Shown: piece by piece, positions 34,032 to 36,317 of the stretch | Position numbering within the stretch: the first letter of the stretch is position 1 | Layout of the letters: each line of letters opens with the position of its first letter | NCBI GenBank assembly: GCA_946183145.1 | Contig: CAMGZM010000001.1 | Span: forward strand, 186,001 to 250,000 | Origin: an uncultured Fretibacterium sp. | Lineage (GTDB): Bacteria; Synergistota; Synergistia; Synergistales; Aminobacteriaceae | DNA: 64,000 nt | Direction: 5' to 3' | The notes under the pieces: generated by a model | What the model was told of the DNA's origin: nothing | The model's input: only the letters and a program-made list of their open reading frames with translations | The model's database searches: none | Program-made: the position numbers and the translations under genes

Positions 34032-34136
34032 GATAATTCCTCCTTGAGTATTGGGAAAATTTGCAGTGATTATAGCTTAATATTGTTATATACTTATACC
34101 ATCCAATAAAAAAATTTCGGAAGGAGATAGTCAGCT

Positions 34137-34142
34137 TATAAT
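34137..34142 (+). promoter_or_regulatory. -10 element upstream of the structured RNA
   Basis: TATAAT in the region between the channel gene and the reductase. A separate TTGACA occurs at 34183-34188, but its -10 would be the poor TACTCT (34206-34211), which overlaps the 5' arm of the RNA's closing stem. The TATAAT here is therefore the better candidate. Confidence 0.35.
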
Positions 34143-34209
34143 TTAATGTAAAGTTGTTCTACTCTATGTTACTTACAGCACCTTGACAAAAAATTAAGGG
34201 AGGATTACT

Positions 34210-34435
34210 CTGCTACGTAAGCCGGGGTGCTAGACACGAACCGATAAGAAAAGAAATACCCGGAGAAATCCGGCTACCGTGGGCTAACGCGGGAAGTAAA
34301 GCCTCTGGACTGCCATACAAACTTTAGTAGCTGAATTATTGCGAACGAGGGCAGGAAATGTCATAGCAATATGGAAAGAATGAGGAAAATTCGAAAAAGT
34401 GTCGGTAACACGAAATAACACTTTTTACGTAGCAG
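34210..34435 (+). ncRNA. Candidate structured RNA, about 226 nt, upstream of the reductase
   Basis: A perfect 11-bp closing stem pairs CTGCTACGTAA (34210-34220) with TTACGTAGCAG (34425-34435) across more than 200 nt. Inside: AGCC/GGCT (34220-34223 with 34272-34275), GGGT/ACCC (34225-34228 with 34258-34261), CCGTG/CGCGG (34277-34281 with 34288-34292), CTGCC/GGCAG (34310-34314 with 34350-34354), TATTGC/GCAATA (34337-34342 with 34366-34371), CCATA/TATGG (34313-34317 with 34370-34374, partly alternative), and AAAAAGTGT/ACACTTTTT (34394-34402 with 34418-34426). No coding frame fits. It ends 10 nt before the reductase ATG, which has no ribosome site. Class not recognised. Confidence 0.5.
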
Positions 34436-34445
34436 CAATACTATC

Positions 34446-36317
34446 ATGAAGAAAAAAGTATTTGCGCTTGTTTCAGCCATAGTGATAATAATCATTATGG
34501 TAATCACACAGCAGCAGCGAGGCTCGTCCGTAATGGGTTCTGGAACTGCTGACGGATTCGGCGGCCCCGGCGCGATCTCCGTAACAATCACCCTCAAAGA
34601 CGGCAAAATCTCCGACGTAAAAGCAGACGGCCCGAAAGAGACTCCCGGCATAGGCTCAGTAGCAGTCGAGAAAATGCCCGGCGAAATGGTTGCGGGAAAC
34701 ACAATCAACGTTGACGGCGTTTCAGGAGCAACAGTAACATCAACAGGAATCCTCAAGGCGGCAGAGTCAGCACTCAAAGCGGCGGGCGTAAATCCTGAGT
34801 CATTCAAGGGCGCATCAGTCGCAAAAGCTGAGGATAAGACATATGACGTTGATGTTGTTATCGTCGGTGCGGGCGGTGCTGGAATGATCGCGGCGATTAC
34901 GGCTGCTGACGCTGGGAAAAAAGTCGTCCTCATTGAGAAGCAGGCCATGACGGGCGGAAACTCTGTGCGTGCTTCTGGCGGAATGAACGCGGCTAATACT
35001 CCTGAGCAGAACAGCAACACATTCACGGAGGAAGCCGGAGTCGAAAAGACCCTCAAGAATGCCGCAGACAAATGGTCATCTCATCCCGCAATTACAGCAC
35101 TTGCCGCAAAAGTCAAAGCTGAATGGGACGCGTACAAAGCAAAGCCGGAAGGATATTTTGACCGCTCCGAATTAATGCAGCTTGATACACTCATCGGCGG
35201 ACATGGCATCAACAATCCCGAACTCGTAAAGACTCTCGCCGACAACACAGCAGATGCTATAGCATGGCTCAAAACGGTAAATATTGACCTGTCATCAGTC
35301 GGTTTTGCCGGAGCTGCGTCAGTAAAACGAATCCACAGGCCATTGAACGAACAGAAGAAAGTTGTATCTGTAGGCGGCTATATGGTTCCGAGACTGGAAG
35401 CGGCCTGCAAATCACGCAAGAACATCACAATGTTAATGGAGACAACCGCGAAATCAATAATGACCGACAAAGACGGCAAAATCTCCGGCATTGAGGCAGA
35501 AAGCAAAGGAGCAAAAATCACCGTCAACGCAAAAGCCGTAATTCTTGCGACAGGGGGATTCGGCGCGAACTTGAAGATGGTTGCGAGACTCAATCCTGCG
35601 CTTGAAGGTTTCATGACTACGAACGCACCCGGCATTAACGGCGAGGGAATCGTAATGGCTCAGGAACTCGGAGCTGCTACAGTCGACATGAAGCAGATTC
35701 AGATTCACCCTACAGTTCAGTATGATTCATCTAACCTCATTACGGAAGGTTTGCGCGGTGATGGCGCGATTCTCGTGAACACTAACGGAAAGAGATTCAT
35801 TGATGAAGTTCTTGCGCGTGATGTTGTCTCAAAGGCAGAAATTGAGCAGCCTAACTCATTCGCTTACCTGATAATAGATCAGAAAATGGTTGACGAGTCG
35901 CTCCTCATTCAAGGCTATATAGCAAAGGGATATTCATTCAAGGGCGACACATACGAGGCATTAGCGAAGGAGATAAATATTCCTGCTGACGTTTTCGCAA
36001 AAACAATGACGGACTGGAACAGCTACGTAACGGCGAGGAAAGATCCTGATTTCGGACGGACGAGCTTTATGAATCCTCTCGACAAAGCCCCGTATTACGC
36101 GATAAAAGTTACGCCGGGAATCCATCACACAATGGGCGGACTCAAGATTGACACAAGGACTCGCGTTCTTCGTGCTGACGGCTCAGTGATTGAGGGATTG
36201 TACGCGGCCGGAGAAATTACCGGTGGTGTTCACGGCGGAAATAGGCTCGGAGGAACAGCAGTATCAGATTTCGTTGTGTTCGGGAGAATCGCAGGACAGG
36301 AAGCCGCGAAATTCTAG
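34446..36317 (+). CDS. Exported fumarate/urocanate reductase-type flavoprotein with FMN-binding domain
   Basis: 623 aa. An N-terminal hydrophobic anchor or signal (VFALVSAIVIIIIMVI) is followed by an FMN_bind domain with the flavin-attachment motif DGVSGATVTSTG (residues about 93-104), then an FAD-binding reductase domain: VVIVGAGGAGMIAAITAA, EKQAMTGGNSVRASGGMNAA, ILATGGFGANLKMVARLNP, PGIHHTMGGLKIDTRTRV, GLYAAGEITGGVHGGNRLGG. This is the UrdA/flavocytochrome c layout without the haem domain. It probably uses an enoate (fumarate, urocanate, acrylate type) as a periplasmic electron acceptor; the exact substrate is not readable. Confidence 0.9.
   Translation: MKKKVFALVSAIVIIIIMVITQQQRGSSVMGSGTADGFGGPGAISVTITLKDGKISDVKADGPKETPGIGSVAVEKMPGEMVAGNTINVDGVSGATVTSTGILKAAESALKAAGVNPESFKGASVAKAEDKTYDVDVVIVGAGGAGMIAAITAADAGKKVVLIEKQAMTGGNSVRASGGMNAANTPEQNSNTFTEEAGVEKTLKNAADKWSSHPAITALAAKVKAEWDAYKAKPEGYFDRSELMQLDTLIGGHGINNPELVKTLADNTADAIAWLKTVNIDLSSVGFAGAASVKRIHRPLNEQKKVVSVGGYMVPRLEAACKSRKNITMLMETTAKSIMTDKDGKISGIEAESKGAKITVNAKAVILATGGFGANLKMVARLNPALEGFMTTNAPGINGEGIVMAQELGAATVDMKQIQIHPTVQYDSSNLITEGLRGDGAILVNTNGKRFIDEVLARDVVSKAEIEQPNSFAYLIIDQKMVDESLLIQGYIAKGYSFKGDTYEALAKEINIPADVFAKTMTDWNSYVTARKDPDFGRTSFMNPLDKAPYYAIKVTPGIHHTMGGLKIDTRTRVLRADGSVIEGLYAAGEITGGVHGGNRLGGTAVSDFVVFGRIAGQEAAKF

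Follow-up and report, generated by a model that had tools for sequence, protein, structure and literature searches.

The window analysed is a 64,000-nt stretch of one contig of an uncultured Fretibacterium sp. (Synergistota), and all features located below lie on its plus strand. A gene for a FAD-dependent reductase, flavocytochrome c-like by sequence, occupies positions 34446-36317, and its start codon is displaced from its Shine-Dalgarno (SD) sequence. The displaced AAGGAG, at 34121-34126, is the original SD of the gene, as judged from empty sites in sister genomes, and also the target-adjacent motif (TAM) at the left junction of an insertion, as judged from the IS607 TAM (PMC11061315). It is near certain that the region previously described as a structured RNA (34210-34435) belongs to one copy of a non-autonomous, IS607/TnpB-type insertion element, which spans 309 bp (34127-34435), and that this small mobile DNA carries an RNA related to the guide-RNA part of TnpB transposons. 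The left boundary of the element is therefore 34127 and not 34210.

The perfect 11-bp closing helix of the preliminary description, formed by CTGCTACGTAA (34210-34220) and TTACGTAGCAG (34425-34435), is present. The plus strand folds at -61.7 kcal/mol, against a mean of -47.7 kcal/mol for 200 dinucleotide shuffles, none of which was as good (z -3.47), while the minus strand folds more weakly (z -2.10). The nested helices and the hairpin competing with the closing stem also proved real, since a conserved helix at about 34392-34401 / 34419-34429 overlaps the right arm. A reading of the 11-bp pair as terminal inverted repeats was rejected because some 85 nt separate the left arm from the left end of the element. 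No match to a group I intron was found in the window, and the element does not qualify as an IStron.

The structured RNA is multi-copy: the window region is about 80% identical to another copy in its own genome, which contains seven strong matches to the element RNA. R1, a covariance model built on the 3' part, had matches in 28 of 43 same-genus genomes, counting in the second lineage described below. In aligned copies from many of these genomes, the right end ...TTACACTTTTTACGTAGCAG is common and is followed by complete divergence, with the start codon of some unrelated gene almost always located downstream. Many copies sit at contig ends of the draft genomes G003, G006, and G065 (e.g., L132, L133, L148, and L150), and these assemblies therefore give minimum copy numbers. 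Within the scaffold of L044, L053, L063, L064, L145, and L146, short hairpin-like insertions were observed (e.g., GGCATTAGCGTAGCGGGCCGGATGGCC) that may represent a small repeat of their own.

Empty sites define the junctions exactly. Orthologues of the reductase gene with 96% identity lack the element in the sister genomes G030 (GAAGGAG-CAATACTAATC-ATG) and G065 (GAAGGAG-CAATTACTATC-ATG), where AAGGAG is separated from ATG by 11 nt; in the window the element and 10 nt stand between AAGGAG and ATG, and comparison with the empty sites shows no duplicated target. The single-copy rpsK gene of the window's genome is split likewise, with AGCAGGAG, the element, 11 nt, and GTG. In 29 relatives, nearly all rpsK genes carry AGGAGG or a comparable purine-rich SD immediately upstream of the start (mean anti-SD energy of -11.9 kcal/mol for the 27 measured). 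A start codon follows the right end by 5-13 nt (median 9) in 61 of 71 copies; the corresponding share for random places in these loci is 11.5%. Before the left end, 33 of 41 copies show an AGGAG-like, TAM-like motif, where shuffles would give 10.7. Some relatives from Firmicutes likewise end a few nucleotides before an ATG; in a number of the Firmicutes IS607 loci L297-L316 and L322, this right end is often GAGTAGCAG. The SD-start spacer as a landing site thus probably follows from the target motif and is not special to this genus. These loci suggest that this TnpB clade generally lands in such spacers, since its TAM is an SD.

The RNA had been called unclassified, a label that does not hold: RAGATH-18 scores are 54-56 bits for TnpB-bearing copies of this element family and 65 bits for a second TnpB copy of the window's genome, belonging to the second lineage. 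A RAGATH-18-like core is located at 34302-34369 (28.8 bits, E 0.0011). The window RNA is related to RAGATH-18 but is not a member by Rfam's rule, its score being below the gathering threshold of 44.9 bits. An Rfam scan returned nothing above threshold near the region, and RAGATH-18 was the sole notable match with permissive settings; a RAGATH-33 match of 12.3 bits was dismissed as chance level. The core is flanked by two scaffold hairpins. The stem of the 5' hairpin (34277-34292) covaries strongly, and its loop GGCUA can pair with UAGC at 34430-34433, this loop/right-end pair being formed in 98.3% of cases. The 3' hairpin (34392-34429) overlaps the right arm and is paired in 99% of alignment cells over 29 copies. 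In the scaffold common to the window copy and the TnpB-bearing copies, 98.5% of cells are paired, and covariation is 0.238 versus 0.128 in shuffled alignments and at most 0.096 in slid controls.

In IS607 TnpB systems, RAGATH-18 RNA is the guide-RNA scaffold, the 20-nt guide lies directly 3' of it, and the target-adjacent motif is AGGAG or GAGGG (PMC11061315). By analogy, the window RNA may act as a TnpB guide (omegaRNA/reRNA), and positions 34436-34455, comprising the host SD-ATG spacer and the first codons, are the candidate guide if TnpB uses the RNA. A tnpB gene of the IS607/ISFba1 clade is located directly upstream of the same RNA end at three loci, one in the window's genome (L044) and two in two sister genomes (L074 and L075). 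The own-genome TnpB is intact, contains Pfam TnpB domains, and keeps the three RuvC positions; its closest solved structure is 8IAZ (ISFba1 TnpB; 392 bits). TnpB-bearing copies of the window's family contain neither the internal SD nor the left arm, and one of them precedes murC in the own genome. The IS607 TnpA serine recombinase (NF033518) was not detected in the own genome, and the resolvase at C19:10972 was rejected as the transposase since it looks like an ordinary resolvase. In 8 of the 43 genus genomes NF033518 exceeded its cut-off, and there the hits share contigs with second-lineage RNA matches and lie close to them (e.g., G005:C88 and G009:C81).

As had been stated earlier, ATG 34446 has no nearby ribosome-binding site; it begins 10 nt past the helix. 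A strong SD-like GGAGG at 34199-34203, just outside the closing helix, had not been mentioned. It is part of the internal SD-like sequence AAGGGAGG (34196-34203), located 6 nt before the left arm CUGCUACGUAA (34210-34220), which pairs with 34425-34435 and shows compensatory changes. The right arm UUACGUAGCAG (34425-34435) is the right end of the element, as placed by the empty-site junction, and is nearly invariant in the 29-copy alignment. In non-autonomous copies, the internal AAGGAGG is also nearly invariant and, in almost all of them, stands 6 nt before CTGCTACGTA. For the 36 relatives in which a start codon follows after 5-13 nt, the internal SD has a mean anti-SD energy of -11.9 kcal/mol, equal to that of the natural rpsK SDs, and all 36 reach -6 or better; the corresponding values for the stretch directly before the start are -2.7 kcal/mol and 4 of 36. 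A leader peptide after the internal SD was rejected, since an ATG (GTAATG) is present in some copies, absent in the window copy and several others, and its frame is not conserved.

The preliminary description had named a lack of compensatory changes in the 11-bp stem, beforehand, as one of the outcomes that would refute it. Compensatory changes were found, and the structure was not refuted. The closing helix is 95.5% paired over 36 distinct arm pairs, and its covariation is 0.171 versus 0.108 in shuffled alignments (0 of 500 as high), with slid controls not exceeding 0.098. The exchanges comprise GC/AU/CG, UA/AU, and AU/GU/GC. This signal is carried by few columns: 3 of the 11 pairs changed on both sides, a count reached in 61 of 500 shuffles. 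Together, the compensatory changes in the scaffold and the closing helix support the large structured non-coding RNA proposed at the outset. Some computed folds pair the internal SD or the AUG in part. Individual copies depart from the common arrangement. L129 lost the left arm, and a search for a downstream start codon found none there; L143 precedes an ORF yet has neither the internal SD nor the left arm; L077 kept the internal SD and has no arm.

The arrangement recurs with other sequences. A second lineage in the same genus has a divergent IS607-like TnpB (38-40% identical) and the right end CTGTAACGG; its members are L162 (own genome, C1:174273-175412 and downstream) and L228-L267. Its non-autonomous copies read AAAGGAGG or AAAGGTAGGTGA, then CCGTTACAG, and finally CTGTAACGG and the start codon, and the loop CGUUA and right end UAACG preserve the same loop/right-end pairing. 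A third lineage was found in other genera of the family (L280, L282-L290, and L292-L294 in G104; L281 in G088), with the order AAGAAGGTGAAAC-CTGCTACTG...CAGTAGCAG-start and the spacing AAGAAGGTGA, 3-4 nt, CTGCTACTG, scaffold, CAGTAGCAG, start. Several of these loci contain a decaying tnpB between CTGCTACTG and CAGTAGCAG. Downstream genes of the third lineage, named by reading their sequences, include those for enolase and leuD. With differing arm sequences, the three lineages have one SD-arm-scaffold-arm-start layout.

We consider it probable that this IS607/TnpB-type element in an SD-start spacer keeps the host gene translated by means of its own SD and helix, and its RNA may guide TnpB in trans. 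An upstream SD, a start codon just downstream, a conserved helix between them, and no proximal SD were all found, and from these features we infer the following translation mechanism. In mRNA entering from upstream, the helix would close the scaffold of about 226 nt into a side structure. The element's own strong SD would then lie 6 nt before the helix, and the other strand of the helix, the right end, would lie beside the host ATG. The result would be a split ribosome-binding site, SD - 6 nt - [helix] - about 10 nt - ATG, keeping the host gene translated; the single-stranded flanks of the helix total about 15-16 nt. If TnpB acting in trans bound the RNA instead, the nucleotides following the right end would become the guide, and the guided TnpB could cleave element-free copies next to the AGGAG motif, which would favour retention and spread of the element.

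The right end does have two mutually exclusive partners, namely the left arm in the closed mRNA fold, and the 5' hairpin loop together with the 3' hairpin in the guide fold. The closed mRNA fold would place the SD beside the AUG and allow translation of the host gene. A possible but doubtful extension is that host translation and TnpB guiding compete in a two-state RNA, silent in mRNA and active as a guide, as a splice-free counterpart of the IStron.

Other readings accept less of this scheme. An unlikely one takes the element as described but assigns the helix to DNA recombination or guide folding and the internal SD to a remnant of tnpB, host translation being SD-independent or reduced. The SD could indeed descend from that of tnpB, of the type seen in L162, since this own-genome tnpB has a strong SD before its ATG; its distance to the left arm is nearly fixed, which argues that it is kept for use. 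The right end is common to TnpB-bearing copies and is therefore constrained by the recombinase and TnpB, but the left arm is not at the element terminus, and the G-U pairs kept in the helix favour pairing in RNA over DNA. TnpB-bearing copies standing before genes without the arrangement suit this reading, whereas the layout recurs with unrelated arms in the two other lineages. In L159 and L160, read by eye, changes in one arm are matched in the other, whereas the alternative loop pairing seems disrupted, which also speaks against this reading.

Promoter supply by the element, with a short SD-less leader and a helix irrelevant to translation, is quite improbable. A promoter-like TTGACA-N17-TACTCT is located at 34183-34211; it is also given as TTGACA-N17-TAATCT for the copies, and the -35-like hexamer is common (33 of 41 copies). 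By position, the predicted RNA would start inside the left arm and lack most of it, although selection preserves this arm; copies lacking the -35 retain GGAGG and, for the most part, the arm, and rpsK is part of an operon that is transcribed from upstream anyway. A ligand-sensing riboswitch, or another regulatory leader of the host, the "switch" of the preliminary description, is highly improbable. The position before a start codon, the alternative pairings, and a fold better than shuffles would suit it, but the RNA is an insertion found in front of dozens of unrelated genes, and its precise empty sites largely refute such a reading; TnpB-bearing versions exist, and Rfam searches confirmed that no riboswitch class matches.

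TnpB systems are the ancestors of Cas12. To our knowledge, IStrons, which remove themselves by splicing, are the main case in which it is understood how TnpB carriers spare host genes. The elements described here land where the damage should be greatest, because their target motif is itself an SD, and the landing sites include the fronts of genes for ribosomal proteins and central metabolism; the insertion damage appears to be repaired by an RNA fold. If true, insertion could be made harmless in a second way, nature would provide a collection of very long split ribosome-binding sites, and a selfish element would offer a case of selection for neutrality.

A literature search found no report of this arrangement, most subscription journals being outside its reach. 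The closest relative is the reRNA of IS607 TnpB (RAGATH-18, RF03064; ISFba1, 8IAZ; PMC11061315), with a homologous scaffold, a TnpB of the same clade, and an AGGAG TAM at the left junction; the guide position after the right end also matches the ISFba1 reRNA, and the pairing of the 5' hairpin loop with the 3' end resembles its PK2. Unlike that system, the element has no tnpB and contains an extra SD and a left arm; the RAGATH-18 score of the window copy falls short of the Rfam gathering threshold, and its guide role is putative. It resembles MITE-type elements in being short, multi-copy, devoid of its own transposase, and presumably mobilised in trans, but differs in carrying a guide-RNA scaffold and in residing mostly in SD-start spacers. 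Like IStrons, which combine a group I intron with IS605/IS607 parts (PMC4227781), it is a mobile element limiting host-gene harm at the RNA level; it has no intron and no splicing, and restoration would consist of translation across a folded loop. In bacteriophage T4 genes 38 and 25, structure between the SD and AUG shortens the effective spacing (22 nt to 5 nt and 27 nt to 11 nt, respectively; PMC3014915), and in Escherichia coli thrS an RNA structure interrupts the ribosome-binding site (PMC3936740, PMC3858243). The effective spacing proposed here (6 + about 10 nt) is longer than the 5 and 11 nt of T4 and, in contrast to T4 and thrS, the predicted loop is a mobile element of about 226 nt located before many unrelated genes.
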